From NCBI GenBank assembly GCA_947561395.2, contig OX387187.1, positions 25,649,829-25,713,828 of the forward strand: a stretch of DNA of 64,000 bases. The letters run 5' to 3'. This stretch comes from Buxus sempervirens (taxonomy: Eukaryota; Streptophyta; Magnoliopsida; Buxales; Buxaceae). Shown one piece after another: positions 19,397 through 60,118 of the stretch. Below the pieces are notes generated by a model. The model was not told the DNA's origin, did no database searches, and saw only the letters and a list, made by a program, of their open reading frames with translations. Numbering within the stretch: the first letter of the stretch is position 1; each line of letters starts with the position of its first letter. The translations under genes were made by a program, and so were the position numbers.

Positions 19397-19406
19397 CTAT
19401 TTATAG
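19397..19406 (-). promoter_or_regulatory. LTR TATA box
   Basis: Minus-strand CTATAAATAG lies 15 nt from the palindrome array at 19421-19632. The same arrangement is seen in the LTRs at 28407 and 40688. Confidence 0.6.
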
Positions 19407-19420
19407 GCAAAAAGGGGCGT

Positions 19421-26596: not shown

Positions 26597-26747
26597 GACC
26601 GCATTTTAAGTGCGTCCTTTACGGAGGGACAGCTGGTCGATTCGGCGCGATTTCGCACACATGGGCGGCCGACTGCACTTCAAATGCTGTCAAGGCATGA
26701 CCGCACTTGAAATGTGGTCAAGGCATGACCGCATTGAAAATGCGGTC
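26597..26747 (+). repeat. Upstream palindrome array of the outer solo LTR
   Basis: Units of the form GACCGCA-N7-TGCGGTC: one at 26597-26616, then three at an exact 28-bp pitch (26671, 26699, 26727), for example GACCGCATTGAAAATGCGG. The last unit ends 14 nt before the TATA box at 26761. Confidence 0.85.
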
Positions 26748-26760
26748 ATGAAAAAAAGTC

Positions 26761-26769
26761 TATAAATAG
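26761..26769 (+). promoter_or_regulatory. LTR TATA box
   Basis: TATAAATAG lies 14 nt after the palindrome array and in the proper strand for the LTR. Confidence 0.7.
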
Positions 26770-26849
26770 GGGGCCAGCCCCCCCATTTCAACAGGCCAAC
26801 CCCCATAAGCTCTCCCCCTCTCCTTTATGGTGTTTTTCCACGACCCTAC

Positions 26850-29205
26850 TGTGCGCACCTAAACCTGGCCTAGATCGCACACCGGGCGCGCCTTCAGTGC
26901 GTGCCTCGGGACATTCGGAGTCGCCACTGCCTGAGAGGTGCAGGCAGACACGGTTTTGCCCTAATCGGGTCTAAGTCTGGTCTGCGGCTTATTAGAGATC
27001 TAGCTAAGTCCTCAGTTACGTCCGGGGAAGCCCTAAGACACCCCGGCCCGCCCCGTTGGTTTGACGGGTCCCTCGGGTCTCCCTGGTTTTTGAGTCAATT
27101 TCACCCTTTTCCTAGACCAGCATACTGACTTGTAAGGTCTGGCGGGGCCCGCTGGAGGTGTGGGTCCCTTTTTATTTGATTTTATCTTTTTATTTATTTA
27201 AGTGATGTGGGTCGGACCCGGGTCCCGTTGGAAGACCCGTGGGTTGCCATGGTTGGGCTTTAGGCTCAGTAGGGTTATTGGGTAACCCATTTGGTTATTT
27301 TATTTATTTACACATTCCATGGGCTTAGTGGGCTTGGATTTGGCCCATTAGCCAAGAGTCAAAGGGCCTGGGCCTGTTTATTGAAAACAGGCCTGGTATA
27401 GGCCAGTCAAAGGTGGGCCCACAAATGGGCATATGATAATCTTGGTGGGCCCGTCTAGGCCCACAGTCTTTTATTGGGCTCACAATAGCCCAAATTGTCT
27501 AAAAGGCCGGTTCAGGCCGTTTTGGGTTGGGTTAAATCCAACCCAAAACAGTCCACCCCTGCCCGTGAACACAATACGGTCAAGTTCGTCCGTGAAGCCA
27601 ACACGGTCCAGATTGGACCGTTCTGAGTTTACGGGCGCCTTCAGTTTTGCATTTTGGCCGCCGATTCTTTTCGGGATCTGTTCCGTGGCCTTCTTAAGTG
27701 TTTCTGCAGCTTCAACTGGGTTTCTAGATTCTTCATTTGTTTCACCTTCTTCTTTTGGTCCAAATGACCACCTTTTACTTCTTTTTGTTCTTTGAGCAAG
27801 CAAGATCTTCTCTTAGTTATTCACCATCAATCTTAGGAATGGGAAAGGGGTAATTTACAGGGGATTGAGTAATACTCAAGGAAGTCATGTCCCGATCTTA
27901 CATAGAACAAAGAAGATCATTAAATTAGTTGATTAAAGTGTCCTTTGGACACTTTCTTTCTTTCTTTCTTTTTATATATGACCAACTCCTTTCTTAGCTT
28001 TCCATGACTTAAAAGAAAACAGCAAAAAGATTAGTGGAAAACGTAGAATGTACAATAACTTGAAAAGAAATTAAAACTTATCACATTGTATTCAAATGAG
28101 TGAGAAAAATACTTACAATGCAGTTTATGACTAGTTTCAATGGTTCCTCTGAATTCGGCAGCGCTTCCGCGTCCTCTAGGTTTTTCTAGGTTGATTTTGG
28201 CAGAGGTTTGGTGGGTTCTTGATGATCAAAGGATAAAAAAGAAGATTTTAGACATGGTTTTGATGAGGCAGGGGTACTTTGGGAACAAAAAGATTTGGGT
28301 TTGGGGGGTGACGGTAATTGGGCAGAGTTTGGACGTGGCTAGCAGGAGAGGGAGAGGGAAGAGAGGCCAGGGAGAAAGCTTGTTCAAATGAAGGGGGGTG
28401 ACCTCTCTATTTATAGGCAAAAATCTCGTGCCCGTATTTGAAGTACGGGCGTGCCTTGCCCGTACTTAAAGTACGGGCGTGCCTTGCCCGTAATTCAAAT
28501 ACGGGCGAAAAACGAATATTTGCAATTATCGCAGATTCTTCCGTACGGGACGCGTGTCCCGCCACGCGTCCTCTTCTAGAAGCGTGCCCGTAGTTGAAGT
28601 ACGGGCATGCCTCGCCCGTACTTCAAATACGGTCCAGCACGTTTTTAAAATGTTTGGATTTCAAACCTTTATTCAATTTGGTTTATTTAAAGATTTTTAT
28701 CCGATTTTTTGATTATTTTTATTATAAAACGAGATTCTCTTATTAAAATAATATTAAAAAATAAAGATATGATTATTTTTACTTATTTAATTCATCTATT
28801 CTGCTTTTTGCTGCTATTTTGCCACATGGGCAGCTTTATTTGAAATTTCAACTGCTCATAACTTTTCCGTTCAATGTCCGATTTCAGCAAATTTGGTATC
28901 GTTGGAATCAGCTCGGAACACACTATCCACTGGGATTAAGTTTAGCAGCTGAATTGGGGTCGAGCAAAAAGTCAACTTTCGCTTCCCCAAAAGTTTGACC
29001 AGCTCACAACTTCCTCATCCGGACCCCGATTCTGGCAAACTCAGTTGCGTTAGAATCGTGTCGAAATGCTCTTTTCAATGAAAGGAAGTTTGATGGCCAA
29101 TTTTCTTTGAATCAAAAAGTCAATTTTTGACCCCCTCAGGGTTTGACTTTTAGTTTGACTTTTCATTTTTCTTTATTTTGGGGGTGCAAAAATCAGGTGC
29201 TAACA
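26850..29205 (-). repeat. 3' LTR of the gag-only element
   Basis: 2356 bp. In element orientation it runs from TGTTAGCACCTG (at 29205) to GCGCACA (at 26850). Relative to the 5' LTR it lacks 49 bp near 27545, which removes one palindrome unit of the downstream array. TATA box at 28407-28416 (minus), upstream array 28430-28632, downstream array 27561-27636. GGGACGCGTGTCCC, a further perfect palindrome, lies between two parts of the upstream array. Confidence 0.93.
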
Positions 29206-29218
29206 GCTGCCCCTCTTT
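29206..29218 (-). promoter_or_regulatory. Polypurine tract
   Basis: Minus-strand AAAGAGGGGCAGC directly precedes the 3' LTR. This is the expected primer position for plus-strand DNA synthesis and fixes the element's orientation. Confidence 0.8.
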
Positions 29219-30200
29219 GCTGGAGTCACCTTAGGGGATGAACGGCAAAGAAGAAAAAGAACCTTATTTTTGTACCTTGCATTTCTGTCGACAGGGTTGA
29301 CGAGCTCAATCACTGAATTGTTTTTTAATGAAAGGGAAGTGTCAGATGTCTGGTATCACTTCCTGATTTTGGAATCCCTATACCCTCTTTCGGGTTTGAA
29401 TAGGGCTGTTCCTTAGTTTTCTGTCTTTGCAAAAGAAAGATAGGATTAAATCTGGGCTCATCAGCCTGTTTCGGCGTTGATGCAAGGCACTTAACGATGT
29501 TCTTTTCTTTTTTGTTTGTTCCATTAAAGTTTTTAGTGACTTCAATTCTTGATTCCTTGAGTTTTTTTTTTTTTTTTTAGAGAGATAGGCCAAGGTATGG
29601 GTTTGGGAGTGCCGGTGGGAGGACGGGAGGAAGCTTTCGCGCTGCCGTCCATCATCTCGGAGACCACACACACCTATTCTATTTACAAAAGTGAGAATCA
29701 AAATTTACAAGAAGGGGCGAATTGGCCCATTATTGCTCTTCCTTGTTGCTTCTCTTTGCCAGGTTCTTTCTCTTGTCGAGGCATTTAAAGCTTCTCTTCC
29801 CACTTATGAGTATCCACTGGGGATCTGGTGGGGGATTATTGTGGTGTCTCTCTTTGCTCTTTGAAGTTTTGTTGGAGGGTCTGAGGATCTTGACGATCTT
29901 CTTTCTCTTGAGCTCCGCTGGGGATGAAAGGGAAGAAGCCTCTGCTGGGGAATGAAGGAACAAAGTATCCCCCTCATGTTTATTTTTGCATCTTTCTTCC
30001 TTCTTTGTACCTGTACAAGGAACACAACATCAGTGTTTGCTCCATCTGCTAGGGATTAATGTAATCTTCAACTAATCAAACAACTCCGTGGGGTTTTTTT
30101 TTCTGAAGAGCTTAAGTAGTGGTACTCCCCTGGGGGCTTGTGCCTTTTCAGGATTTTAACAGGTACGGACTTCGGAAAGCTATTTTGGTACCTGACTATA
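29219..30200. other. Non-coding 3' part of the element
   Basis: No coding domain of a retrotransposon was found on either strand. Both strands show frames of 60-110 codons, but these have no recognisable motif. Confidence 0.5.
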
Positions 30201-30900
30201 GATCTATTTTAACTGTCCTAAAACAGTTGGGGAAGAGAACCCAAAGACAAATTGATCTATTTTAATCATTTGGAATGATTGGGGAAGAGAACCCTGGACT
30301 TGATCTATTTTAGCCAAACGGCTGGGAAAGAGAACCTTTGACTGATCTGTTTTAGTCAACCGGGTGGGAAAGGGAACCCGGTTTAGACTGGTCTGTTTTA
30401 GCCAAATGGCTGGGAGAGAGAACCCAAAGTTAAACTAGTCTATTTTAGCCAAACGGCTGGGAAAGGGAACCCGGTTTAGATTGGTCTATTTTAGTCAAGC
30501 GGCTGGGAGAGAGAACCCAAAGTTAAACTGGTCTATTTTAGCCAAACGGCTGGGAAAGTGAACCCACGGTTAAACAGGTCTATTTTAGCCAAACGGCTGG
30601 GAGAGAGAACCCAAAGTTAAACTGGTCTATTTTAGCCAAACGGCTGGGAAAGGGAACCCGGTTTAGACTGGTCTATTTTAGCCAAGCGGCTGGAAGAGAG
30701 AACCCAAAGTTAAACAAGTCTATTTTAGCCAAACGGCTGGGAAAGTGAACCCATGGTTAAACAGGTCTATTTTAGCCAAACGGCTGGGAAAGGGAACCCG
30801 ATGGTTTATTTTAGCCAAACGGCTGGGAAAGTGAACCCATGGTTAAACAGGTCTGTTTTAGCCAAACGGCTGGGAGAGGGAACCCAAAGTTAAACTGATT
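30201..30900 (-). repeat. Tandem array 1 of the 3' UTR, about 15 units of 46 bp
   Basis: On the plus strand each unit reads tctattttag, a short hairpin, then gggaaagggaacccg or a variant. The hairpin arms change together: AACTGT/ACAGTT, AATCAT/ATGATT, AGCC/GGCT. Outer units are more diverged. Position between gag and the 3' LTR matches the repeat-prone 3' UTR known in the Ogre/Tat branch. Confidence 0.85.
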
Positions 30901-31039
30901 AATTTGAACTTAGTATCTCAGGGTTGGACCATGTAAAGTCTCCGCAGGGGGTGAGTTGAAAAACAACACCCAGGTGTGCCTCAGCCAACCTTCGGTTTAA
31001 TCACTGGCGGCGTCGGTACCACAAACTTTGGTCAATTAA

Positions 31040-32905
31040 TGTGTGAATACATTATGACTCTTTCTGCGTCCCATGTGTGAATACATGGTGACTCTTTTTC
31101 TTTGATTCAAGGCTGACTTATTTGTCGGTGGCTTTTGTCAACCAATGTGTGGATACATTGTGATGACTCTTTTTGCGTCCCATGTGTGAATACATGGTGA
31201 CTTCTGTCCTTGTCTTGTTTTGTCTTGATTCTATTCGAAGCTGACTTACTTGTCGGTGGCTTCACAAACTTTTGTCAACCAATGTGTGGATACATTGTGA
31301 TGACTCTTTTTGTGTCCCATGTGAGAATACATGGTGGCTCTTGTCTTTAGGAGACATTTCGTTTCTTTTGTCTTTGTCCATTTCTTTTCTCTCTCAATCT
31401 TTTTCTCTTCTTCTTCTTTTTTCTTTTCTTTCTTTTCTCAATCCATTTTTTTTTCTTTTCTCATTCCATTTTTTTTTTTCAAATTCATGTATCAACAGCT
31501 TTGATATCACAAATTATGTTGGGACATTCCCTCACCAATTTCTTCTTCGTCCAATGTGTGAATACATTGTGACGGTTTTGTTTTTTTTTCATTTTTTCAT
31601 CAGCGTGTGAATACGCCGGAATGGCTTTTCTGCGTTCCATGTGTGAATACATGGTGCCGATTCTGCTTGCGCCCCATGTGTGAATACATGGTGACGACTC
31701 ATTTTACATCCCATGTGTGAGTACATGGTGATGGCATCCAATGTCTGAATACATCGTGATGGCTTTTTCTGCGCCCCATGTGTGAATACATGGTGACGTA
31801 TTTTGCTTTTACATCCAACGTGTGAATACGCTGTGATGGCATCCAACGTGTGAATACGCCGTGATGACTTTTTTGCGCCCCATGTGTGAATACATGGTGA
31901 CGGATTTTGCTTTTACATCCAACGTGTGAATACACTGTGATGGCATCCAACGTGTGAATACGCCGTGATGACTTTTTTTTGCACCCCATGTGTGAATACA
32001 TGGTGACGGATTTTGCTTTTACATCCAACGTGTGAATACGCTGTGATGGCATCCAACGTGTGAATACACCGTGATGACTTTTTTGCGCCCCATGTGTGAA
32101 TACATGGTGACGGATTTTGCTTTTACATCCAACGTGTGAATACGCTGTGATGGCATCCAACGTGTGAATACGCCGTGATGACTTTTTTGCGCCCCATGTG
32201 TGAATACATGGTGACGGATTTTGCTTTTACATCCAACGTGTGAATACGCTGTGATGGCATCCAACGTGTGAATACGCCGTGATGACTTTTTTTTGCGCCC
32301 CATGTGTGAATACATGGTGACGGATTTTGCTTTTACATCCAACGTGTGAATACGCTGTGATGGCATCCAATGTGTGGATACATTGTGATGACTTTTTTGC
32401 GCCCCATGTGTGAATACATGGTGACGAATTTTGCTTTTACATCCAACGTGTGAATACACTGTGATGGCATCCAATGTGTGAATACATTGTAATGACTTTT
32501 CTGCGCCCCATGTGTGAATACATGGTGACGGATTTTGCTTTTACATCCAACGTGTGAATACGCTGTGATGGCATCCAACGTGTGAATACGCCGTGATGAC
32601 TTTTTTGCGCCCCATGTGTGAATACATGGTGACGGATTTTGCTTTTACATCCAACGTGTGAATACGCTGTGGTGGCATCCAATGTGTGGATACATTGTGA
32701 TGACTTTTCTGCGCCCCATGTGTGAATACATGGTGACGAATTTTGCTTTTACATTCAACGTGTGAATACGCTGTGATGGCATCCAATGTGTGAATACATT
32801 GTAATGACTTTTCTGCGCCCCATGTATGAATACATGGTGACGAATTTTAGCTTTCTGTGCCCCATGTGAGAATACGTGGAGGCAATTTTTCCTGCATCAG
32901 TGTGT
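31040..32905 (-). repeat. Tandem array 2 of the 3' UTR, hairpin repeats; about 10 units of 104 bp
   Basis: The core motif is a GTGTGAATAC-centred hairpin: CATGTGTGAATACATG, AATGTGTGAATACATT, or ACGTGTGAATACGC. From about 31700 to 32850 a 104-bp unit holding three such hairpins is repeated about ten times, marked by ttttgcttttacat. Reading frames through it shift by two bases per unit and so appear in all three frames; they are not taken as genes. Confidence 0.9.
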
Positions 32906-34610
32906 GAATTTGCCGTAATGGCCTTGTCTGTCTGTTTCAAGCTTTGTCAGTACCTGCAAAAGTTCAAGTGAAATTTAGTTAATCAAAATTACGTGCAAAA
33001 CATAAGTAATCAAAACCTTTTGGGAATTCACCAATGTTTGGAATTCCCGCTTTTCAAAGTGGGTCCATGACAAGACCAATAATCTTTGGGTCAGTCACCT
33101 GACACTCTCATTTAGACTTTATGAAATGGTGCTTCTCAGCATTCCCTGTAAAGGTCTCAACATTTTTGCCTTCAATGGCATGCCCCAAGTTAGAATGAGG
33201 GGAATTGTTTTGGGTTCAGGGGGTTTCTTTGGCACTGCCCTTCCCCAGCTCTTTTAATTTTCTCTCTCTTTTTTTTTCTTTTTCCCACCCTTGGTTGGGG
33301 GTTTTGAAATGGTTTTTCTCTCACTTGGTTCCCTTATTTGGGTTGGTGCCTTGCCCCAGTTCAAGGGCTCTGTCAATTTCCACAGATCATGATCCAACGA
33401 TCAAAGAGGACTTATTAGTAGGACGAAATATAGGCTTTGGTTCCAGTGTTTAGAAATGAAGGATAAATAGGTTCAAATCCTATATAACTTCATTCTATGG
33501 GTAACCATTATGTCTAGCCAAAATTCTTTTGTTCCTTTGATTCTGTCATTGCCAGTTTGTCTAGGAGTTAGTGTCACATTCTCTGTAATCAGAAAGGACT
33601 TCATAACAGGACGAAACGTAGGCTGGGTTTATGGGTCCAGAAGAAATGGTATAAAGGCTCAAAATTTGTGAGCAGGGTAAGAGCCATGTCCTGTCCATTT
33701 TTCTTGGTTAGGGCTTGCTTCATCTTTTGCCTTTTCAGCTTTGTGTAGCTTCTTTACCTTTTTTTCCATCTTTGTTTTTTTTCTTTTCTTTCCTTTCTTG
33801 TTTTTTGGGTTTTATCCCGTTTCTCCTTTTTAGGGCACTTTTCACTTTGCCCTATCTTCCCCTTGTCTTTCTCGTGTCTCCAATTCCATGAAGCTTGTGT
33901 ACCCCAGTTTTGAAGACAGGACATGGTAGGGTTAATGAAGAGATTGTTAGGCTCAAAGTGTCTTGCTAGGGTTTCATCTTATGTCAGATGATTTTTGGAG
34001 AACATCAAGGATGGCCTTTCATCCTTTTACAGAGAATGTAACACTTGTTTTTGTACAATTAACTGGCTCAAGAACCATTTTCATCTTTATTTATTTTCTT
34101 TTTGACTTTGCCCCAGTTTGGGGTGGCTAGACATAACATGGGTTAGAAATGAGACGATCAAGCTCAATCACGTCTGACTAGCGGAACTTGTTTGAAGTAT
34201 TTTGGCCAAAAATGGCCTCTCATCATGTCATTGGGATCATTGATCCTGGATCATGTCAGTGACCCTTAACTGGTATGGGCACCTTGCCCCTTCTTCTTCT
34301 TTTTTTTCTTTCAGCTTGCCCCACTGTTTGGCAAGGTAGGGTTCAAATGTGGTGCAGGTGGGGGATCCCTTGGCTATGTTGAGACCCACACAGTTTGTGC
34401 TGTTCAACACATTTCATCTGTCAAATTTGATTGTTCAAGTTTGTCCTGAGATCACAATCTTGCCTTGGTGTAGTTAAACACTTTGGTGATTTCCCAAAAG
34501 ATTTCATTAGCTTGCAAAAAGGAAGCATGTTATCAAGTTCGGAATTTTAAAAGAAAGCATAAACACAAAATAGCAAATTATGCAAAAAGGTGGCTGATGC
34601 GAATCAGCAT
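32906..34610. other. Non-coding internal part of the element
   Basis: Pyrimidine-rich DNA with loosely repeated modules, each containing a GCCCCAGTT or ACCCCAGTT block and a GGACGAAAnnTAGGCT-type block, about 250-300 bp apart. No protein domain was recognised. Confidence 0.5.
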
Positions 34611-35417
34611 TCTTGGAATTTAGTTTCATGCCATGGAAGGAAGTCTTCAGGTGCTCTCATCACCCTCCTTTTTCACATCCTCTTCTCTTTCCTGCGGGAA
34701 GATGGTTGATTCAAATATTCGGACCTGTGCCAACTCCTCAGAGATGTCTTGTCCTTTATCAAATTCCGATTGCTCAAATAGTTCTTTCAAGAACCCTTGA
34801 TCAATTAAATCTTGAATGTCATGCCTCAGATTCCAACACCGGTTTGTGTGGTGTCCTGGAGCACCAGAATGGTACTCACATCATTCTGCAGCGTTGTAGT
34901 TTCTGGACCGAATCATTCGGGGATTCGGAGGCCTAATCTGCACATACCCCTCCTTCAATAGTGTTGGAAGCAATTCTACCGGTGCATATGGAAAAGGGGT
35001 GAAAATCCTCCTCATTCTGGCCTCTGCTTCCTCTTTTGTTCTCCTTGGGGAATCATCCAAAGGATTCTGCTTTTTCATGGCTCGAGTAACACCCTCTGCT
35101 ACAGCTTTTCCTTTCTCTTTTTGCATCCGACTACCTATTATGGTTGGCGGGCAGCTCACTTCTTGACAATTCAGGGGTATCTTTCCCTTCATTTGTTGGA
35201 TTTCTTCTTCAAGGACCCTTACTTGAGATCGTAGTTCAAAATTTTCTTCTCCTAATGCTTCCCAGCATTTGTTACATGTTTCTTCCCTGATTGTTATCAT
35301 TCGTAGTAAACTCCATAGAGAGGCCACTATGCTGGATATTTGCTGGGCTGCATCATGACTTGTTTCTGAGGTGTGGTCCATTTCGAATACCGACGGGGTT
35401 CCTGCCAAAAGAAACAA
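34611..35417 (-). pseudogene. Second gag-like frame, broken by a stop
   Basis: An open frame from 35417 to 34881 starts with a helical, Glu-rich, coiled-coil-like region and ends in RRIFTPFPYAPVELLPTLLK and a PPNPR block, matching the FTQLPYSLAELLPTLLQ-PPNPR part of the main gag. Directly after an in-frame TGA the same frame continues with CEYHSGAPGHHTNRCWNLRH, the same C-x2-H-x5-H-x4-C module as in gag, and stays open to about 34611. It thus looks like a tandem duplicate of the gag C-terminus with its own N-terminal part, now interrupted by one stop. It lies 131 bp downstream of gag in element orientation. Whether the stop is read through is unknown. Confidence 0.7.
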
Positions 35418-35548
35418 GCATCAGAAACCAGAATCCATGAAATGCTAGACTGCATAGAGATATTTCAATCTTTTCTCTTTTTTTTTCTTTTCAAATTTTT
35501 TTTCTTTTTTCTTCTTTTTTTTTCTTTTTTTTTCTTTTCAATTTCTTT

Positions 35549-36889
35549 TCAACTTGGTAGAGGATCAATTTTGAGTTCCTCAGCTTCAAGGAGATCTTGG
35601 ACTGCATGACGGAGGCTCCAACATTCGTCAGTATCATGCCCCGGTGCTCCTTTATGGTAATCACATGTCTTGGACGGGTCATACCCTCTACTTGCTGGTG
35701 CCCTTGGATTTGGGGGAACCTGCTTCAGGTGTCCTTCTTGCAGCAAGGTAGGCAACAACTCAGCCAGGGAATATGGGAGCTGTGTGAACACACGGTTCTT
35801 TCTTTCTTCCTTAGTCAAGGGCTCCTTCAGTTGAGCCATGGTGACATTTGCACAGGGGTGATCATTTCCTTTCTTGCGCTTAGCAGATCGGACATGGTTG
35901 ATCGCTCCCTCATATCTTATGTCTTCTTGGGAGGATTCTATCATAGAAGCTCCTATTCTTCCAGCCTCAATCGCATCTTCAATCCTTTCTGCCACCTTGA
36001 TTAGATCGGCAAAACTTGCAACACACTGTCCCAACAGCATTGTAAAGTATGGCTGCCCCAGTGATGAAACGAACAGAGAAGTTTGTTCTTGTTCAAGGAG
36101 AGGGGGTTGAACCATATTTGCTAGTTTTATCCATCTTTTAGCGTAGTCTCTTACAGACTCACTATTTCCCTTTGACAATTTCTGTAATCCTGCCCGGGTT
36201 TGAACCGTCGGACTGTTCAAATGGTACTGTTGGATGAATACAGCAGCAAGGTCGTTCCATGTCTTAACCTTCTGTTTGTCTAGACTTAGGAACCAAGAAT
36301 ATGCTGCCCCAGTTAGCGATCTCTGGAAGAACTGAACCATGATCTTTTCATCCTTCACATATTGGCACATGTCGCCAACATAGGATCGCAGGTGTATCAA
36401 AGGACAGCCAGTACCGTCAAACTTATGCAAGTCAGGACATCGGAACTTTGCTGGCAGATGGATGTCTGGGAAAAGACACAAGCTCTCCAGTGTGGTTTCC
36501 TCACGTACTGGGTTGGGCTGGAGTTGTTTCAAGAGCTCTTCTCTTATTGCGGCTATTTGGGCCTTACTGTCTTCCTTTACTGCAGTCAACATTTCCTCAA
36601 GTTGGGCCTTCCGTACCCTGTTCCGGTCTTGCTCTTCTTGCCCCAATTGGACAGGCACACATGGTGGAAGGTGGGTGGCTATTGCTACCGGATGTGGGAA
36701 TTGGGTGTCCCGTGGTGGCAGATCAACTGACATGAGGTTCGGCTGGGGTGGTTGTCCCTGTTGGACTTCTGGTACTTGAACCCCCGTGACATGCGTCATG
36801 GCTACTTGTTGACTTAGATCCATCATGACTTGCTGTTCTTCAGTTCTTGGTTGTAAGGATGACAAAGTTGGAGCCTCAGAAGAATTCAT
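35549..36889 (-). CDS. gag: Gag polyprotein of the Ogre/Tat-like element
   Basis: 446 codons from an ATG at 36889, intact. Residues 1-80 are Gln/Pro-rich. Residues 85-125 look like a coiled coil. Residues about 155-290 form a Retrotrans_gag domain (FDGTG, SLTGAAYSWFLSL, WNDLAAVFIQQY, LQKLSKGNSESVRDYAKRW). The C-terminus has FTQLPYSLAELLPTLLQ and, at 409-423, a C-x2-H-x5-H-x4-C knuckle variant followed by LRHAVQDLL. Gag would form the cytoplasmic virus-like particle that packages the element RNA. The frame stops 25 residues after the knuckle, with no protease fused or following. Intact gag in a pol-less element suggests it either is very young or keeps gag for packaging while borrowing pol in trans. 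Confidence 0.9.
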   Translation of the reverse strand: MNSSEAPTLSSLQPRTEEQQVMMDLSQQVAMTHVTGVQVPEVQQGQPPQPNLMSVDLPPRDTQFPHPVAIATHLPPCVPVQLGQEEQDRNRVRKAQLEEMLTAVKEDSKAQIAAIREELLKQLQPNPVREETTLESLCLFPDIHLPAKFRCPDLHKFDGTGCPLIHLRSYVGDMCQYVKDEKIMVQFFQRSLTGAAYSWFLSLDKQKVKTWNDLAAVFIQQYHLNSPTVQTRAGLQKLSKGNSESVRDYAKRWIKLANMVQPPLLEQEQTSLFVSSLGQPYFTMLLGQCVASFADLIKVAERIEDAIEAGRIGASMIESSQEDIRYEGAINHVRSAKRKKGNDHPCANVTMAQLKEPLTKEERKNRVFTQLPYSLAELLPTLLQEGHLKQVPPNPRAPASRGYDPSKTCDYHKGAPGHDTDECWSLRHAVQDLLEAEELKIDPLPS

Positions 36890-39060
36890 TGCAGTCCTTT
36901 TTCAATGCAAATGCAGCGTTCTGGGTAGTGCTTTTAATGTGAAGTACCTGAATTGTACCTGTTCATAAAAGATCTCAATCAGTTTCTTTTCAACTTATGA
37001 ACAAGGTGTTGTGTGTGACGAGATCATTTACACCGTGAGTGGTGCTTTGGTGTCACGATGAACGGAAACAGATATGGGATGATTCATGCATGAAAATCAC
37101 AAATTTGACAAAACATCACTGTGAATAGTGTGTGACAGTGCCGTATCCAATCAAGAGTTTTTCCTGAAAATTGCGATGTTAAAAAAAACTTGCGGTTCGA
37201 TCTTTCAGAGATTGAGACTCTGGAGATCATATCGTGTTTGATGGTTTTCAAAACTGTGCAACACGTGCTTTAGGAGTGCAAACCTCAGGAAATCATATCC
37301 GTGCCTTAATGGGCGGCGACTGAAAATTTCTTTGAAAACGTGCCCTGAACAATTAATATCATGGCATGGAGAATTTACGCCGCAAGATGGGCGATAATAT
37401 TTATGTCTAAACAGCTAGCTCAATATAACCACTGATGACGGTTTTATTGTGCGTAGCAAAAGACAAAGTTAATGTCCGTCGTGGAGACGATTCAATGTAG
37501 GCTTGAAGGCCACTTTATTGTGTGCTTTAAAAAGCAATTTTGATGAGTGCCTTAGAAGTTGGCTCAATGCATGCCCGGAAAATATTTTGTGCATTTTTGA
37601 AAACGGTTCGACTAAACAGGTTGGTATAAATGATCTCGAAATGTGGGTGCTCAATGCATGAACAGATATATGTACAAGTAAAGTGAAAGTTAAATATTAT
37701 AACAAATATATCACAAACGTGTGCACAGTCCTAGAAGGGTTAGTGCCTTTCGAAGCACGACTCCTAGACATACTTGTGTAAGGAAGCACTCCTAAGTTTT
37801 AATCAGCCTTTTTCTTTCATCTGTTCTTTCATCTGCTCTTGGTGTCGGACCAAAGTGAAGATATTTACAACTTGCCATCAAGGGCGAAATTTACAAAAAT
37901 AATTCTGTAAAGAAAATCACCTTTAGGGTTGTTGGGAACCCAAAAGGACGGTACAAGTTTGCTCTTTGGTAGGTGGGCTGAAATCCTAAATCTAGGGTTT
38001 TTCTGCCCCTGTTCTGATCTGGCCTGTTTCTGTTTGATTGTCTGATCTGGCCGGCTCTCATCTGTTCAAAAGGCCAACTAAGACTTAGAGTGCTTCCAGC
38101 GGACTCAATGGGTCGAGACCCACGGCTCATAGGATTCAAATGCATGGATCTGGGGTTAGACCCCTGATCAAATTGGGTTGGTTTCTTAAATTAGGGCTAA
38201 GGCAGCCCATGGTCTAGGTTTTACTCAGGTTGATGCAAAAAACGGCGGGGGTTGCTACTCCTAATGGACTCTTGAGTTCTAAATTTATTTTTCCCTTATT
38301 TTGTTCCAACATTCGCGTTTACATTCAGATTCAGATCCATTCACATTCAGAGTATCAAGGTTTTTCAGAATCAATAGGTGGGGAAGGATACCTAGCCCGA
38401 GGCACCTGCCTTCAAGGGTCTGAGCCAAGTACTAGACCCCTCGCGTACCATGGCAAGAAACCAATGGCGCTTGAAGAATCTAGAAACCTGGGGAGATGGG
38501 TTTACCCTGCTTTCCCCGGCAAGCCACGGGAGCGTAGGGCTAATACCATCCCAAAAGTAAGTTTCTCGATTGAAGAAGGGTGGCTGCTAGAGAGATCTAG
38601 GTTTTGGTTAAGAAAAGCATTCACATGGTGCAGACAGCATTCAGTTCGGATCATTCATGCAGACTCCCTCGTGCATGTCACCCCACGCAGTTAAAAAATT
38701 CATTCACGGTGTAGTGAGGTGTTTGTATGTGCAGTGGGGTCAAGTGCTGTGTCTATTCGGGTGATTCTCGGATAAGGGCCAACAAAGGGTTCCTTAATGT
38801 CACATTTATAGTAAAAGTGCAGAACAGCATGTAATACAAGATCTGGGTGGATCCCCAGGTAAGTGGGCGGGTCACATTGGTCCCTGTTAAAAACAACTTG
38901 CCTTAGGCGATTATCATGTCCGTTTGACAGGATCCCCCAATATCATGTAATTACATGAGTTCCCTACTTTACTAAGGTTGGACAAGAAGTACTTCCTAAA
39001 TTAGCCTATATCCTCCTAAGTGGACTCATTTGATAACCAGGGTCCGACTGGGTTGAGGGT
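36890..39060 (-). other. Leader between primer site and gag
   Basis: About 2.2 kb without a convincing open frame in element orientation. Frames on the opposite strand (such as 38230-38694) match no known domain. Related Ogre elements can carry an extra ORF here; I see none intact. Confidence 0.5.
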
Positions 39061-39078
39061 TCCCCAGCAGAGTCGCCA
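39061..39078 (-). promoter_or_regulatory. Primer-binding site, tRNA-Arg type
   Basis: Minus-strand TGGCGACTCTGCTGGGGA begins 3 nt after the 5' LTR. Sites of this kind, assigned to tRNA-Arg, are a hallmark of the Ogre/Tat branch. The tRNA assignment is from memory of the family, not from a search. Confidence 0.75.
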
Positions 39079-39814
39079 AGCTGTGCGCACCTAAACCTGG
39101 CCTAGATCGCACACCGGGCGCGCCTTCAGTGCGTGCCTCGGGACATTCGGAGTCGCCACTGCCTGAGAGGTGCAGGCAGACACGGTTTTGCCCTAATCGG
39201 GTCTAAGTCTGGTCTGCGGCTTATTAGAGATCTAGCTAAGTCCTCAGTTACGTCCGGGGAAGCCCTAAGACACCCCGGCCCGCCCCGTTGGTTTGACGGG
39301 TCCCTCGGGTCTCCCTGGTTTTTGAGTCAATTTCACCCTTTTCCTAGACCAGCATACTGACTTGTAAGGTCTGGCGGGGCCCGCTGGAGGTGTGGGTCCC
39401 TTTTTATTTGATTTTATCTTTTTATTTATTTAAGTGATGTGGGTCGGACTCGGGTCCCGTTGGAAGACCCGTGGGTTGCCATGGTTGGGCTTTAGGCCCA
39501 GTAGGGTTATTGGGTAACCCATTTGGTTATTTTATTTATTTACACATTCCATGGGCTTAGTGGGCTTGGATTTGGCCCATTAGCCAAGAGTCAAAGGGCC
39601 TGGGCCTGTTTATTGAAAACAGGCCTGGTATAGGCCAGTCAAAGGTGGGCCCACAAATGGGCCTATGATAATCTTGGTGGGCCCGTCTAGGCCCACAGTC
39701 TTTTATTGGGCTCACAATAGCCCAAATTGTCTAAAAGACCGGTTCAGGCCGTTTTGGGTTGGGTTAAATCCAACCGGGCTAGAAAATTGCATTTTTTAAG
39801 TTACTTTTACATTT

Positions 39815-39918
39815 GTCCGTATTTGCTATACGGTCCACCCCTGCCCGTGAACACAATACGGTCAAGTTCGTCCGTGAAGCCAACACGGTCCAGATTGGAC
39901 CGTTCTGAGTTTACGGGC
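39815..39918 (-). repeat. Downstream palindrome array of the 5' LTR
   Basis: Four 21-nt units start at 39815, 39843, 39870 and 39898 (pitch 28, 27, 28). The best is GTCCGTATTTGCTATACGG. Stems share the CCGT/ACGG core with the upstream array of the same LTR; some units have imperfect arms. The first unit is missing from the 3' LTR. Confidence 0.8.
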
Positions 39919-40687
39919 GCCTTCAGTTTTGCATTTTGGCCGCCGATTCTTTTCGGGATCTGTTCCGTGGCCTTCTTAAGTGTTTCTGCAGCTTCAACTG
40001 GGTTTCCAGATTCTTCATTTGTTTCACCTTCTTCTTTTGGTCCAAATGACCACCTTTTACTTCTTTTTGTTCTTTGAGCAAGCAAGATCTTCTCTTAGTT
40101 ATTCACCATCAATCTTAGGAATGGGAAAGGGGTAATTTACAGGGGATTGAGTAATACTCAAGGAAGTCACGTCCCGATCTTACATAGAACAAAGAAGATC
40201 ATTAAATTAGTTGATTAAAGTGTCCTTTGGACACTTTCTTTCTTTCTTTCTTTTTATATATGACCAACTCCTTTCTTAGCTTTCCATGACTTAAAAGAAA
40301 ACAGCAAAAAGATTAGTGGAAAACGTAGAATTTACAATAACTTGAAAAGAAATTAAAACTTATCACATTGTATTCAAATGAGTGAGAAAAATACTTACAA
40401 TGCAGTTTATGGCTAGTTTCAATGGTTCCTCTGAATTCGGCAGCGCTTCCGCGTCCTCTAGGTTTTTCTAGGTTGATTTTGGCAGAGGTTTGGTGGGTTC
40501 TTGATGATCAAAGGATAAAAAAGAAGAGTTTAGACATGGTTTTGATGAGGCAGGGGTACTTTGGGAACAAAAAGATTTGGGTTTGGGGGTGACGGTAATT
40601 TGGCAGAGTTTGGACGTGGCTAGCAGGAGAGGGAGAGGGAAGAGAGGCCAGGGAGAAAGCTTGTTCAAATGAAGGGGGGTGACCTCT

Positions 40688-40697
40688 CTATTTATAG
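40688..40697 (-). promoter_or_regulatory. LTR TATA box of the 5' LTR
   Basis: Minus-strand CTATAAATAG, 14 nt from the palindrome array. Transcription would run towards lower coordinates into gag. Confidence 0.7.
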
Positions 40698-40710
40698 GCA
40701 AAAATCTCGT

Positions 40711-40913
40711 GCCCGTATTTGAAGTACGGGCGTGCCTTGCCCGTACTTAAAGTACGGGCGTGCCTTGCCCGTAATTCAAATACGGGCGAAAAACGAATAT
40801 TTGCAATTATCGCAGATTCTTCCGTACGGGACGCGTGTCCCGCCACGCGTCCTCTTCTAGAAGCGTGCCCGTAGTTGAAGTACGGGCATGCCTCGCCCGT
40901 ACTTCAAATACGG
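40711..40913 (-). repeat. Upstream palindrome array of the 5' LTR
   Basis: Five units of GCCCGTA-N7-TACGGGC start at 40711, 40739, 40767, then after a gap 40867 and 40895; within each group the pitch is exactly 28 bp. The last unit lacks the final two bases of its arm. The array occupies the position of promoter-proximal binding sites. Confidence 0.88.
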
Positions 40914-42222
40914 TCCAGCACGTTTTTAAAATGTTTGGATTTCAAACCTTTATTCAATTTGGTTTATTTAAAGATTTTTATCCGATTTTTTGATTATTTT
41001 TATTATAAAACGAGATTCTCTTATTAAAATAATATTAAAAAATAAAGATATGATTATTTTTACTTATTTAATTCATCTATTCTGCTTTTTGCTGCTATTT
41101 TGCCACATGGGCAGCTTTATTTGAAATTTCAACTGCTCATAACTTTTCCGTTCAATGTCCGATTTCAGCAAATTTGGTATCGTTGGAATCAGCTCGGAAC
41201 ACACTATCCACTGGGATTAAGTTTGGCAGCTGAATTGTGGTCGAGCAAAAAGTCAACTTTCGCTTCCCCAAAAGTTTGACCAGCTCACAACTTCCTCATC
41301 CGGACCCCGATTCTGGCAAACTCAGTTGCGTTAGAATCGTGTCGAAATGCTCTTTTCAATGAAAGGAAGTTTGATGGCCAATTTTCTTTGAATCAAAAAG
41401 TCAATTTTTGACCCCCTCAGGGTTTGACTTTTAGTTTGACTTTTCATTTTTCTTTATTTTGGGGGTGCAAAAATCAGGTGCTAACACCTACTCTGCCCAA
41501 ACTCTGCTAGCCTGAAACTTTTACCATTTTGCCCCTATATCATACCCTTTTGTCTCTACCCTCTATCCATTTTAACCCGAAGTAGGAGAGGCCCTTTTCA
41601 AAGTCATTTTGAAGAATCAACGGGAGTGCGGAAGCACTGCCAAAATTCTCGGAGAATCACAACATACCAAAGCAAGTAGGTAATGGTACAGTAAGCATTT
41701 CTATAACTTTGTATTCAACATAAGTGGAATTCGATTGATTTTGGTATCTTCTCAAGGTTCTTTTCCTTATTTTATTCTTAATATCTCATCTCTAACTACA
41801 TTTTGCTTTCTTTTGCACATTACGAGAAAGAGAGACCTCACGAAAGTGAGGAATCTCCATACGAAGGGAGAGGAGAGCAACTTTTAGTCAAAAGGCTTAA
41901 GTTGATACCATTTTTTTTTATTATTAAGCTAACACCGTTCTTTCCTTTGTTTGTTTTAATCAGTCATTAAGGAGGGGTTTTGTCCTCCCATAACATCTGT
42001 TGTACCCCGTAACCCCTTTCTATATCCTTTCTTAAAATCCCATGCATGTGGGTTTGCAAGTGATGAAATGTCAAGGAGGAGAGATGGAGATTTGAAGACA
42101 AATGAAGATGTTGGCACAACCAAAAATGTGCTAGAACCCTCAACGGAGATCTCCGGACACTCCAGGAGGCTAGCAAAACTGTTCCCAGCCGAAATCGGCA
42201 CCAAACAGTAAAATCGGATGAA

Positions 42223-42327
42223 AACCGCACCTGCAGTGCGGTCCAGGTATGACCGCACTTAATATGCAATCTGGCCTGAACCGCATTACATCTGCGGTTT
42301 AGGCCAAACCGCATAGTAAATGCGGTC
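42223..42327 (+). repeat. Downstream palindrome array of the outer solo LTR
   Basis: Four units start at 42223, 42251, 42279 and 42307, exactly 28 bp apart, of the form AACCGCA-N7-TGCGGTT or with GACC/GGTC ends. The CCGCA/TGCGG core is that of the same LTR's upstream array (26671-26747), not that of the inner element. Confidence 0.85.
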
Positions 42328-43057
42328 AGTTTCAAAATAACTTAAAAAATATAATTTTTTGACTCGAATGGACTCGACCCGACCCGAGCCATGGAAATCT
42401 GATCCATTAAGTAATTTGGGTTTTTTTAAGCCCACTTGTGGACTGTGGGCCTAAATGGGCCCACCAAGGTCTCTTGGGCTCACCTATGGGGCCCATACTC
42501 TGACCGGCCCAAACTAGAGCTGTTTTCAATAAACGGGCCCAAGGCCATTTGCTTAAGTTCTATTGGGCCATATCCAAGCCCATTAAGCCTTTAACATATG
42601 TAATTAATTCAATAAACCAAAAAGGGTTACCCAGTAACCCTACTGGCCCCAAGCCCAAATTTTGGCATCCCACGGGTCTTCCAACGGGACCCGTATTTGA
42701 CCCACCTCACTTAAAAAAAAAGATAAAAAATGAAATAAAAAGGGGCCCACACCATCAGAGGGTCCCACCAGACTGAAAAAGTGGCATGCTGGTCTAGGAA
42801 AGGTAAAATTGACTCAAAAACTAGGGAGATCCGATGGACCCGTCAGACTGACGGGGCGGGCCGGGGTGTCTTCGGACTTCCCCGGACGCAGGACTTAGCT
42901 AGAACTCTAATAAGCCGCAGACCAGACTTAGACCTGGATAGGCAATCCTTGTGTCTGCCTGCACTTCTCAGGCAATGGCGACTCTGAAAGTCTCGAGGCA
43001 CGCATGCACTCCCACGTGCGCCTTGTGTGCGATCTAGATTTAGGTGCGCACACCATG

Positions 43058-50563: not shown

Positions 50564-52977
50564 TGTGAAACATGGGAAATCACCTAGATGACTTCCTCAT
50601 CATCACACAGGATTGACAAAATAAGGAGTCGCCACCATTCACATTAAGGTGTGAATGGACACCAAAAGGATCATAATAAGATAAAATAGAGTTAAAAGTA
50701 ACTCTAACTCATGATTAAGTTCAGAGATCAAGTAAGGGGATTAGGTTATGAGTAGGAGAAGGTGTTAGGAACCCCTACTCATCCACACAAGGTGGTTGCC
50801 ATATGCTATTCATGCTCAAATAATTGCTTGCTAACTAACATCACTCCAAAAGTGCTTAAAACGAAACAAACACTTGTGTGATTTTCTCATAAGAGTAGTC
50901 CAATTGATTCTAGACTCTCTCCATGAGTGTATCACCTCCAGGACTTCATGGTTAAGTAAAAACAAAAGTAAAGATTGAGAAAAAACAAATTTGGAAAAAT
51001 CGATAAGATATCAAGCTATTTTAGCTTGAAAACTTAAATCAATCATAAATCCCATGATTTAAGCTCAAATCAAACAAAACCAAAGCCCATAGAAAGCAGG
51101 TATGAAGTGAAATACTCAGTGAAAAATTCAGCTCAATCCAATTTAAAATGAAAAATAAATGCTCGTTCAAATCTACTGTTGTAAATTTGCAGAAGTGGCG
51201 AGTAACAAACTTTGAAACTCTATTCGTGGAGATTGGCTCCATATAAATCCTTAAAAACTTGTGTGAATAAAGTATGATGTGCCATATTTCAAATGGAATA
51301 GGCCTCACACAAAACTACATCTATTTGTGACTTGTGTGACTTCTTGAACATGCCCAGAAAGTCATAGATCAACTCAGAACTCTACTACAAAGCAGCTCTG
51401 AGTCAATCAAATACACAAGACACAAATCAAAGTGAAAACTCCTGAAACCAGTTGGATTTGAAATAGACCCACAGAGTAACATACAGAGATTGAAATCCCT
51501 TGAATCGGATAAAAATGAGCAAATGGTGCTCGATCAAAATGACAAGTTCAGTAATCTGGCCTGAACTGACCTGTCAACTTTGATCAGATGGTATAAAAAA
51601 TCCACTAAATGTAAATTGTTGAAATTTTGTAAAAAATAACTAGACATCTCCACCTATCAAATGTCTTTAGAATCACTCAAAAATTCATCCGGATGATGAA
51701 GTTATGAGTGTTCTAAGAAAGAGTACAGATGCTGTCCAGGTTTGAAAATCTTGAGTAAAAGTCAGCAAAACCAGTGCATGTGTGTAATAAATTCGGCTAA
51801 ACTGACTTGAAATCACTTGAATAACCTCCTGAAATCCTGAGAGTTTACTCTAAGGCCATTGATCTCAGAGTCGCCATATAGAGCATGGCGAATCCCAGAG
51901 CTAAACATATTCTTAACAAAAGCAAGTGAGATGTGTGTTCATGGTGGAAATCAGATTTTTAGGAGAAAACAAAGACCTAATGCTATAGAGAGCATAGTTC
52001 CTAGTGTTTTCTCCAGATCTAAAATAACATCATTCCAGAAAACAATTATCACACACAAGATCAAGAGTATGCAAATGCTTCATCATAAGATGGTTCTAAT
52101 CCTAAGGTTCCATTCCAACTTCCTTTTCCCCAAGCTCTCTTTTCACGTTTTACGGCTAGAGAGGATTCTTAGGTACTTTAAAAGTGGTTTGGGTTTGCAA
52201 GCACACACAATGGCCTTACACTACATAAAGGTAGAAGGAGAGAGTGCTGAAATGTAAGTAAAATCAAGAAGAAACAATCAAAGTGTCCTTACCTTAGTAG
52301 CTTGAGAGACTTGAGCCAACAATCCTGTAGAGTTTTACTTCTTCTTTCAGAGTCTTCAAGACCCAAGGGTATAAATAGAGGAGGACCCCTCTATTTATAG
52401 GCACAGCCAAGGGTATAAAAAATCCAAGGGTAGGCCAATAAATGTTTCTAGATTACTCCAATTCAAATTAAAGGTATGAATTGAGGTAATTCTACAAGTT
52501 TCAGAGGGTAAAATAAGGAGATCAAGTCTCCCAGAGGGAGGTAATATGTGTAAATAAGGCTCAGATCTCGAGACTTTTCGCAAATGGCAAAATTGATAGA
52601 CACCGCATACACGGTGCGGTTTAGAGCAAACTGCCCTCTGCCTACAGTTGCAACACAAATCCTCAGAAAGCGCATATACAGGGCGGTCAAAATTCAGTTA
52701 AGAGCTAATGATTGCTGCTGACGTGGCCTAACAGCCTGACTGCCACGTGGTGGCCCACTTGCGCTCACGCTTGAAGCATGAACCGAAACCGCACTATATG
52801 TGCGGTCACAACCGCATAGACGCGGTTGAAACAAAATGGCCAAAAACCGCATGGTATGTGCGGTTAGCACCCTTCTTGAATTTTTTTAGTTTTTGACACT
52901 TGTCAAAGCTCAACCAAATCATTTAAAATTCATTTTTAGTGCTCCCCCATATTGTAGTGCAATTTGGGGTGTCTACA
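50564..52977 (-). mobile_element. Solo LTR (Ogre/Tat-like), nested
   Basis: 2414 bp from TGTGAAACAT to GGGTGTCTACA, flanked by gtact at 50559-50563 and 52978-52982. In element orientation it starts TGTAGACACCCC. TATA box (minus) near 52389-52398; palindrome units lie at 52601-52865 with an AACCGCA/TGCGGTT stem, for example AACCGCACTATATGTGCGG at 52787. Confidence 0.92.
52601..52865 (-). repeat. Palindrome units of the 50564 solo LTR
   Basis: Units with CCGCA/TGCGG arms at about 52601, 52787, 52809 and 52845, some shortened (ACCGCATAGACGCGGT). Spacing is irregular, so this array is decayed or rearranged. Confidence 0.65.
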
Positions 52978-57626: not shown

Positions 57627-60118
57627 TGTGAGACACGGGAAAAATCACCGGGATGATTCCCCCTTCGTCAACACACGGGCTCAACATGAAAAGTGGGAGA
57701 GTCGCCACCATTCAGAATTTTGAGGTGAGAATGGACACCAAGAGATTCAAAAATAATCAAAAAAAGCTAAAAGGCCAAATTCTAATGTAAAAATAACTCT
57801 ACATGAAAATCAAATCCAGAGATGGGTAAGGGGATTAGATTATGAACAGGGGAAGGTGTTAGGCACCCCCATTCATCCACACAAGGTGGTTGCCAAGTGT
57901 TTGTTCATGCAAAAAAGGTAAGAAAGCTTGCTAAAAATTATTAAAACATTGAAAAAGAATTAAACAAATGTGTGATATCTTCACATGAGAAATCCAAATG
58001 GATTCCAGATCCTCTTTTATGTCAATATCACTTCTGGAATATCAACAATAAATAGAAATCAAAGCAAAGATTGCAAAAAGCCAAGTTGAGTCAAATTCGG
58101 AAATTTGGTAAAAGATAATGCCATTTGTCTTGAAATCATTCAAATCCAATTTTAAATTGAATCAAACCAAATCCATTTGAAAGATTATGGTAAATAAGAG
58201 ATTCATGCAAAATTTCAAGTAGATCCGGTTGAAAACCTAGGAGTTATGCCTCCTTTAAAATTGTTGCTGGAGATGATTAAAAGTGGTAAGTGGTTAACTT
58301 TGGAAAATCACTGAGGAAAATCGGCTCCATATAAATTTATGAAATTTGGTGTGATTGAAGTCTGTATGGCCGTCTTTCAAATGAAACTAGCCTCATACAA
58401 AAATTCATTCGGATGTGCCTTGGGTGGTTCCCCGAACAGGCCCCGAAGATCACAGATTTACCCAGAAAAATGTTGATGAGCAGTTCTGAGTAACTCTGTT
58501 ACCAAGAGCACAAATGGAGTCAAAAAATTATAAAACCAATTGGATTTGAAAATAGACTCCCAAAGGAAAACTCAAAAACAAGAATCACTCGAATCGGACT
58601 TAAAACGAACACATGGCGCTCAGTCGAAGTGACAAGTTCCGTATTCAGATCAGAACTGACCTATCAACTTCGACAGAGAGGTGTCAAAAATCCGCTTGAT
58701 AGTAATTAATGAAATTTGGTAGGCATAAACTAGACAGCCTCACCTTTCCCATGGTTCTGAAATCACTCCAAAATTCATCCGGACGATGAAGTTATGAGTG
58801 TCCGAAGTCGGGGTACAGTTGCTGTCAAGTTAAGCCCTTTTTGATGAAAACCAACTCCAAATAGTGATAAAGTGTGTGTGCTCCGTGCAAGATTAATCAA
58901 AATCCTCTAAAAATCATTTGAAAACATTCTAGAATTGATTGAGGCTATTTATTTCAGATTTATCACAATAAATGTAATAAATCAGAAATATGAGCCTATC
59001 CCGCCAAAATCATGTGCTATGTATGTGTAGGTGTAAAAACCATTCCAACAACATAACAAAGATAGCATGCATTTATATCAATCAAAATAAGGTTCTAAAA
59101 CAACCTAGGGTTCCGTTCCATTATCGTTTCCCTTAGTTCTCTCTCCCCGTTAAACACGGTTCTTCAAGATAATCTTGGGGTACTTTGAATGTAGAACGGG
59201 TTTTCATAGAATCACAAGGCTTACAGCATGCATTTAGATCAATAAAAAAGGATCTAGAACACTCTAGGGTTCCGTTCCATTATCGTTTCCCTTAGTTCTC
59301 TCTCTCCGTTAAACATGGTTCTTCAAGATAATCTTAGGGTACTTTGAATATGGAACGGTTTTCAAAGATTCAAAAGGCTTATTCAAATAGGTTCTAGCAC
59401 TAGGATCAATCCCCAGTCTCGTTTCTCCTAGATCTCGCCTTCACGTTTTACGGCTAGGAGGAGTCTTGAGATACTTTGAACCGGGGAAGGGTTTTCATAC
59501 ACACATCATGACCTTATTCTACAGAAAGGTAGAAGAAGAGATCTAGATCTAGAAATGTAAAAAAACAAAAATTAAAAAGAGGTTTGAGGCTTACCTGGGT
59601 TCTGGAAGCATTTCCGCAACGGTTTCCCTCTTCTCTCGGAGCTCTTCTTGGCAAAAGTTCTTGGCAAGAGAGTTAATGGCCATTTGCTTAAGGAGGAGCC
59701 TCCTATTTATAGGCAAAGGCTAGGGTTAGGGTTGGTGAGATGGTAGACACAACATAAGGTCCATAGCCCACCAACCTTAACCCTAAGGCTATTTCCGAGA
59801 TTTCCCCTCATTTAATGAGGGATATGATGGTAAAGGTGAAAGCTCTCGGAAAACCCTAATTTTGAGCAAAACTAGTGTATCCGGCATGTCAAGTCGGATA
59901 CACTAGCGCCTATGTGTATCCGGCATATGTTGCCGGATACATTAAAGGCTACTTGTATCTGGCAGGTTCCATCGGATACGAACAGATGCACTTGTATCCG
60001 ACCTGAGTTGTCGGATACAAGGAAAACTTGCTTTTTCACATTTTAGTGCTGGTTTCAAAGGAAGCAATGATTTTGTTGATTATTGATCATTTTTACTGTG
60101 CAATTTGGGGTGTCTACA
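57627..60118 (-). mobile_element. Solo LTR (Ogre/Tat-like), nested
   Basis: 2492 bp from TGTGAGACAC to GGGTGTCTACA, flanked by agtgc at 57622-57626 and 60119-60123. TATA box (minus CTATAAATAG) at 59703-59712; palindrome array at 59877-60018. An internal duplication of a block of about 130 bp (gttccgttccattatcgttt) is seen near 59110 and 59265. Confidence 0.92.
59877..60018 (-). repeat. Palindrome array with 39-bp pitch
   Basis: Four 25-nt units GTATCCG-N11-CGGATAC start at 59877, 59916, 59955 and 59994, exactly 39 bp apart. One unit has GTATCTG. Stem and pitch differ from the other LTRs, but position upstream of the TATA box is the same. Confidence 0.88.

Follow-up and report, generated by a model that had tools for sequence, protein, structure and literature searches.

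Short inverted CCG and CGG motifs stand in tandem in several long terminal repeats (LTRs) of one stretch of the Buxus sempervirens genome, and the question that they raise is what in them is held constant: one particular stem, which changes from subfamily to subfamily, or a geometry that different stems share. We analysed the whole stretch of 64,000 nucleotides (the window), related LTRs from the same genome and genome-wide motif counts, and we describe here what is fixed in these arrays, what varies and which kind of reader would account for both.

The window is built of nested LTRs (Table 1). The outer solo LTR is bounded by a perfect 5-bp TSD (CCATG, at 26004-26008 and 43053-43057) and is split by an inner element that, with two LTRs with TG..CA ends and a perfectly matching 5-bp TSD, is an LTR retrotransposon. 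The two LTRs of this element, of about 2.36-2.4 kb each, are 97.3% identical across 2410 aligned bp. Since its gag ORF lies on the minus strand, these LTRs read on the minus strand, opposite to the outer LTR, which reads on the plus strand. When the internal ORFs of 75 aa and longer were scanned against Pfam (35/35), only gag scored above the cut-off; the matches below it (Ty3_capsid, DUF3228, DUF4078, NMB1110-like_C and PCC_BT) were all weak, including that of gag to PF19259 Ty3_capsid (E 0.002, 18 bits, under the cut-off of 29.1), and pol (RT, RNase H and integrase in the Ty3 order) was absent from these ORFs. We consider the inner element as Ty3/gypsy-like and gag-bearing; this copy looks gag-only or decayed, and the 14.6-kb element may be gag-only and non-autonomous. 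A primer-binding-like sequence, TGGCGACTCTGCTGGGGA, is present near the LTR end at 39061-39078 on the minus strand, and two blocks of tandem repeats lie within the element (30304-30897 and 31667-32854, with periods of 47/93/187 bp and 104/314 bp). In the third related LTR, the interrupting stretch (about 16205-18656) has repeats of its own. Two more LTR families, both starting with TGTAGACACCCC, are found near 52.6 kb and 59.9 kb.

Table 1. LTRs, palindrome arrays and associated features of the window (positions counted from its first letter).
Feature	Position	Strand	Remarks
Third related LTR	about 15349-20191	-	interrupted
Downstream array, third LTR	16100-16203	-	
TATA-proximal array, third LTR	19421-19497	-	GCCCGTA class
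Outer solo LTR, 5' (U3) part	26009-26849	+	TSD and LTR ends TGTTAGCA...TGCGCACA
Distal U3 unit, outer LTR	26597-26617	+	degenerate, arm match 5/7
TATA-proximal array, outer LTR	26671-26747	+	3 units, 28 bp, GACCGCA class
TATAAATAG of outer LTR promoter	26761-26769	+	
Inner LTR retrotransposon	26850-41486	-	splits outer solo LTR; TSD CCTAC
Downstream array, inner element left LTR	27561-27636	-	degenerate CCGT(A/G) units
TATA-proximal array, inner element left LTR	28430-28506	-	3 units GCCCGTA/TACGGGC
Distal U3 units, inner element left LTR	28586-28634	-	2 units
gag ORF of inner element	35549-36901	-	PF03732 Retrotrans_gag, E 5.8e-11, above cut-off
Downstream array, inner element right LTR	39815-39918	-	
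TATA-proximal array, inner element right LTR	40711-40787	-	3 units
Distal U3 units, inner element right LTR	40867-40915	-	2 units
Outer solo LTR, 3' part	41487-43052	+	starts with second CCTAC copy of the inner insertion's TSD
Downstream array, outer LTR	42223-42327	+	4 units, 28 bp, AACCGCA/GACCGCA
ACCGCA-N7-TGCGGT dyads, U3 of another LTR family (start TGTAGACACCCC)	52602-52865	-	
TATCCG-N11-CGGATA dyads, 39-bp period, U3 of another LTR family	59876-60019	-	upstream of its TATA

An earlier reading of the letters of the window (the sequence-only reading) had placed four units exactly 28 bp apart in one stretch and three in another, both within one outer solo LTR. We confirmed this spacing, with units starting at 42223, 42251, 42279 and 42307, and at 26671, 26699 and 26727; both stretches belong to one solo LTR that is cut by the inner element, with perfect TSDs. 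The same reading gave all seven units the core CCGCA/TGCGG, which is too generous, as both arms are intact in only 4/7 units (26727, 42223, 42279 and 42307); in the deviating ones the arms match at 6/7 (26671 and 26699) or 5/7 (42251) positions. When the insertion is set aside, the downstream array lies about 820 bp past the TATA box. The inner element has a similar layout, with two distal units, three proximal GCCCGTA-N7-TACGGGC units, the TATA box and a looser downstream array. The CCCGTA/TACGGG stem that had been ascribed to both of its arrays is present in the TATA-proximal array, in all three units of both LTRs, but gives way to a looser CCGT(A/G)/(T/C/A)ACGG in the downstream array. Over the whole window, a CCG is followed by a CGG 14 bp on in 44 cases, against 0-24 cases at any other distance between 5 and 44 bp; the runner-up, 42 bp with 24 cases, corresponds to three steps of the same array. 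Chains of at least three CCG and CGG alternating every 14 bp number 13 in the window, against 1 in 100 dinucleotide shuffles.

The same geometry is found throughout the genome of about 677 Mb, which was the search space for all genome-wide counts. The pattern CCGNACTTNAAGTNCGG has 3515 sites, against 2 for its reversed control; with one central base more (N12) a single site is left (control 5), and with one central base fewer (N10) only 2 (control 0). TATCCG-N11-CGGATA occurs at 41458 sites (reversed control 23), and these dyads lie at least partly within LTR families of 39-bp period. Many of the 91 places listed for this motif stand 39 bp apart. The letters outside the core vary by subfamily (AA-, GA-, GC- and TAT-CCG), and the invariant is CCG-N11-CGG rather than one particular stem. 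In the 28-bp family, the "spacer" between units is also 7 bp, so that half-sites alternate every 14 bp. A 7-base hairpin loop was rejected as the basic unit, since the 39-bp family shares only the 14-bp step inside the dyad. The fixed spacing could be partly inherited from few founders; yet different arm classes and two periods have it.

To describe copy number and position, we used LTR sets in which only the best 40 of the first-look candidates (6576, 5013 and 5421) were scored each time, so that the sample leans to close kin of the window LTRs; related copies inflate every count. For one set 30 of the 40 scored hits were fetched, and for another 20 of 41 rows were read for arrays. The window's own outer LTR (L005) was replaced by the joined outer LTR (Wout), which has one extra base at the junction, outside the arrays; the second LTR of the inner element (Winn3) was left out, and L065-L067 were used in no count. 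Unit density was compared with dinucleotide shuffles, the reversed-sequence control being confounded by shared ancestry. Among the 52 LTRs, the proximal segments hold 238 units (4.6 per LTR, against 0.24 in shuffles) and the downstream segments 146 (2.8 per LTR, against 0.17); proximal units are missing in 0/52 LTRs and downstream units in 3/52. CCG and CGG start 14 bp apart in 195 cases within the 52 proximal segments, and no other distance between 4 and 39 bp has more than 25. Likewise, the 39-bp family (29 LTRs, with the window copy, L035, set aside) gives 81 cases at 14 bp and no more than 17 at any other distance. All 29 fetched relatives of the 59.9-kb LTR, again not counting the window copy, have at least four units in U3.

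The place of the proximal array before the promoter is nearly constant. A TATA string is present in 51 of the 52 LTRs scanned (L007 has none), and in 48 of these 51 the gap between it and the last proximal unit is 13-16 bp, the exceptions being three LTRs with gaps of 33, 42 and 55 bp. Repeated motifs of this kind, in U3 and a short way from the TATA box, stand where a U3 enhancer array would. In the 39-bp family, the TATA box lies 164-166 bp past the last unit in 26/29 LTRs, the other three being without a TATA string, and in L109, from another family, TATCCG dyads extend up to the TATA box. L108 and L109 represent a further LTR family, in which CCGGA/TCCGG and CCGGT/ACCGG units occur in one U3; the U3 of L109 additionally has CCGGC/GCCGG units. 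On the downstream side, a block near GCGGAAGCGCTGCC is conserved at LTR positions of about 980-1110 (about 41628-41690 in the outer LTR). After this block, a splice-donor-like GTAAGT/GTAGGTA is found in 10 of the 21 LTRs with a recognisable block, among 33 scanned, two of the ten being LTRs of one element. As judged from sequence, the downstream array may lie within a leader intron.

We then compared the two arms letter by letter, keeping in mind that close kinship between many of the copies makes all expectations rough. Among the 238 proximal units, the core CCG hardly varies, and the two letters outside it agree across the dyad in 231/238 and 204/238 units, where independence would give 122 and 111. 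The proposal that subfamilies differ in arm sequence, with the outer letters changing together on both arms, is borne out by these counts. At the second outer letter, 21 of the 34 mismatches are A/C, mostly in the first unit of inner-type LTRs. The inner letter, just inside CCG, is matched above chance, yet loosely (187/238 proximal units, against 118 expected). The heterotypic proximal units comprise 46 C/T against 2 T/C, all within the first 32 LTRs, where the C/T ones represent 46/140 proximal units and at least one is found in the proximal array of 20/32 LTRs. Genome-wide, the letter after CCG at the 3515 sites is T/T in 1723 cases, G/G in 688, C/C in 530 and C/T in 545 (287 + 258), with 29 others by subtraction. 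It is matched at 2941 of the 3486 C/T/G sites, against 1463 expected, and within the C/T class 545/2798 sites are heterotypic where about 1145 were expected. The strict self-complementarity that had been claimed for the stems does not survive these heterotypic units, which number 46/140 in proximal arrays, affect 20/32 LTRs and make up 545/3515 sites of the genome. A strict covariation at the letter that separates CCGCA from CCGTA is rejected on the same ground, though this letter is matched above chance.

G-type and pyrimidine-type arms are almost never found together in one unit. Because the G-type at the two G-type loci read (L108 and L109) sits within TATCCG dyads, this separation may be a mere difference between LTR families. 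In the downstream arrays, the inner letter is matched in 130/146 units (73 expected) and the outer letters in 109/146 and 88/146 (71 and 79 expected), the latter more poorly than in the proximal arrays. For the TATCCG dyads, the inner letters of 139 units from 32 loci of mainly the 39-bp family, L035 included, match in 69 and 99 cases, with 57.5 and 91 expected. Among the 91 places listed, the matches are 86 and 63, with 75.6 and 42.5 expected, values reached by 0/5000 shuffles each; the 51 distinct sequences among these places give 46 and 30 matches against 36.8 and 19.5 expected, which 0 and 4 of 5000 shuffles reach.

Do stems then stay matched inside one LTR and follow its descent, as had been supposed? 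Flank letters are almost uniform within a proximal array, the second (C vs A) in 30/32 LTRs and the first (G vs A) in 29/32. Upstream and downstream arrays agree in type in 42/49 LTRs (24 CCGTA and 18 CCGCA), the 3/52 LTRs without both arrays being left out of this table. They are discordant in 7/49 (L008, L010, L013, L016, L020, L021 and L032), all seven with CCGCA upstream and CCGTA downstream, and the claim fails for these. The 20 inner-type LTRs had been chosen as relatives of one CCGTA LTR; without them, 18 LTRs are CCGCA/CCGCA, 5 are CCGTA/CCGTA and 7 are mixed (n=30), and the two arrays show a weak rank correlation (0.26, p 0.16) and a two-by-two table with p 0.006. On a tree of U3 outside the array (32 rows, good support on 6/29 inner branches), the three proximal classes together require 7 changes, against a minimum of 2 and against 11.3 with shuffled labels. 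The AACCGCA class clusters on it (3 changes; 0/500 shuffles as low), and the GACCGCA (6 changes; 500/500) and GCCCG (5 changes; 121/500) classes do not. On a tree of the part past the downstream array (30 rows, L006 and L028 being left out), the downstream types are clustered: each needs 5 changes, a count that is not exceeded in 0 and 2 of 500 shuffles.

The six LTRs for which this was compared have different nearest neighbours in different segments. For the outer LTR, the nearest relative is L006 when the U3 flank is taken (91.6%), L011 for the array (86.2%) and L023 for the part past the TATA box (86.3%); L006, which has a GCCCG array, is nearest to L025 in its array segment. Because segment neighbours differ and the classes are not all clustered, array type tracks kinship only partly; this mosaic probably arose as array segments were exchanged or repeatedly rewritten. 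The sequence-only reading had named free mixing of stem types within single LTRs as a finding that would tell against it, and such mixing is seen in part.

From the anatomy, spacing, copy number, symmetry and mosaic relationships of these arrays, we infer that in the promoter (U3) and the leader they serve a putative dimeric DNA-binding protein and have spread as units were duplicated and exchanged, and we give this reading a probability of about 0.68. Each unit would be a dyad of two xxCCG half-sites at one distance, fit for a symmetric dimer on double-stranded DNA. The CCG core and the spacing are common to different LTR families and the outer letters (AA, GA, GC and TAT) mark the subfamily; as both arms would meet the same protein surface, these letters change together on the two arms. 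Units are duplicated head to tail, every 28 bp in one family and every 39 bp in another, and array segments appear to be exchanged between LTR backbones, so that an array is mostly of one kind. The poorer outer-letter symmetry of the downstream arrays and the inner letters of the 39-bp loci, matched little above chance, count against this reading. Given the position before the TATA box, the likely job of the arrays would be to bring a transcriptional activator, or a promoter-opening factor, to it; they may alternatively act in repression or in protection from silencing. A co-evolution of the palindromes with a recognition factor, as had been suggested, is possible; unit duplication and exchange together with selection for dyad symmetry would give the same pattern.

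Could the same arrays be hairpins of RNA or single-stranded DNA, that is, stem-loops in the leader or 3' UTR that serve packaging, reverse transcription, RNA stability or small RNAs? We consider this quite unlikely. The folding of the two window arrays is much stronger than that of shuffled sequences (z -5.8 and -8.5), and both would be in transcribed RNA at one or the other end, but a low folding energy follows from the symmetry itself. The inner letter matched above chance (2941/3486, against 1463) would also arise from a hairpin and is a counterpoint to the dimer. The one-way heterotypic units (46 against 2) would form a U-G wobble in antisense RNA; in sense RNA, however, all 46 would carry a C.A mismatch. 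Moreover, the length of the loop is as fixed as the stem (3515 sites against 1 and 2), which RNA loops would not demand, and the proximal "loop" is mostly YTTNAAR, itself largely palindromic. A dimer on duplex DNA fits better than a hairpin because of the fixed 11-bp gap, the symmetric flanks, the loose inner letter and the near-constant place before the TATA box.

A reader encoded by the retrotransposon itself, a DNA-binding protein that would recognise the flank letters for anti-silencing or transactivation as VANC does for VANDAL, seems very unlikely to us. Family-specific short tandem motifs that change together in noncoding DNA are indeed what VANC targets look like. However, the Pfam scan of all 35 ORFs of at least 75 aa in the one copy gave no candidate protein beyond gag; the VANC21 and VANC6 motifs are nine and eight letters long, and in the main text of PMC5735166 no word starts with "palindrom". 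We place equally little credence in a neutral origin, in which an old palindrome without function would have been copied by slippage and gene conversion. The variable unit number, the likeness of units within an LTR, the presence of degenerate units and the array segments whose nearest relatives are not those of their flanks all suit such an origin. Decay would not be expected, however, to keep CCG and the 11-bp gap while both flanks change symmetrically, nor to produce one geometry across LTR families of different arms and periods; inner letters above chance at the 91 TATCCG places listed (86 and 63) also speak against it, though the excess is only slight in the 39-bp loci. The dimeric protein site remains the reading that we prefer.

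How do these arrays compare with known systems? Tobacco Tnt1 carries tandem boxes in U3. U3 of plant LTR retrotransposons varies between subfamilies in motifs and stress responses (PMC10794571), and HSFA2, WRKY and TCP20/DOF2/GATA factors act on LTRs (PMC12786077). The arrays described here resemble such plant U3 regulatory motifs in being repeated beside the promoter and specific to the subfamily. They differ from them by their strict dyad, with one spacing common to several LTR families, by their tens of thousands of sites and by the second array downstream of the promoter. VANDALs are DNA transposons. Their VANC targets are described in PMC5735166 and PMC10398659 as family-specific tandem motifs that change with the reader, which VANDALs themselves encode. 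Like these targets, the arrays are short family-specific motifs repeated in tandem in noncoding DNA and changing together; unlike them, they belong to LTR elements, have dyad symmetry and a fixed gap, and come with no gene of the VANC kind in the one copy scanned. As for the plant factor VOZ, its dimer recognises a palindrome whose two arms are a set distance apart, GCGT-N7-ACGC (PMC6321167). The likeness lies in the gapped palindrome, dimer binding being the feature of VOZ; the units here have arms of the CCG(C/T)A and TATCCG kinds, not GCGT, with conserved parts 11 apart, and identity with VOZ sites is rejected.

In the open-licence literature, as judged mostly by titles and the first lines of abstracts, we found neither a link to LOB-domain proteins nor a description of such palindrome arrays in plant LTR promoters. 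Subfamily differences in U3 motifs, host factors on plant LTRs, VANC tandem motifs and the VOZ dimer palindrome are known already; what these arrays add is a strict dyad geometry that recurs in several LTR families, the flank letters varying with the subfamily. The arrays do exist and are unusually clear as features of LTR promoters go, and the earlier picture of stems always paired and never mixing was too strict.

A wider idea, which we regard as unlikely, is that the dyads are a recognition code private to a retrotransposon lineage, in which one protein family, of the element or of the host, would read them and the outer letters would serve as an address. If this were true, subfamilies sharing one genome would stay separately controlled, duplication would carry a change of address along an array and exchange would carry it from one backbone to another, and this genome, with its more than 41000 TATCCG dyads, would contain a very large set of cis-regulatory sites. 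The arrays bear on the way in which promoters of retrotransposons retain host factors and yet evade silencing. They offer a compact and countable site, with a fixed geometry, outer-letter variants, heterotypic versions and thousands of copies, which is suited to naming the factor by its binding. If the factor is encoded by the host, it may have a large sink or network in these elements; if it is encoded by the element, this would be a VANC-like system in LTR elements.
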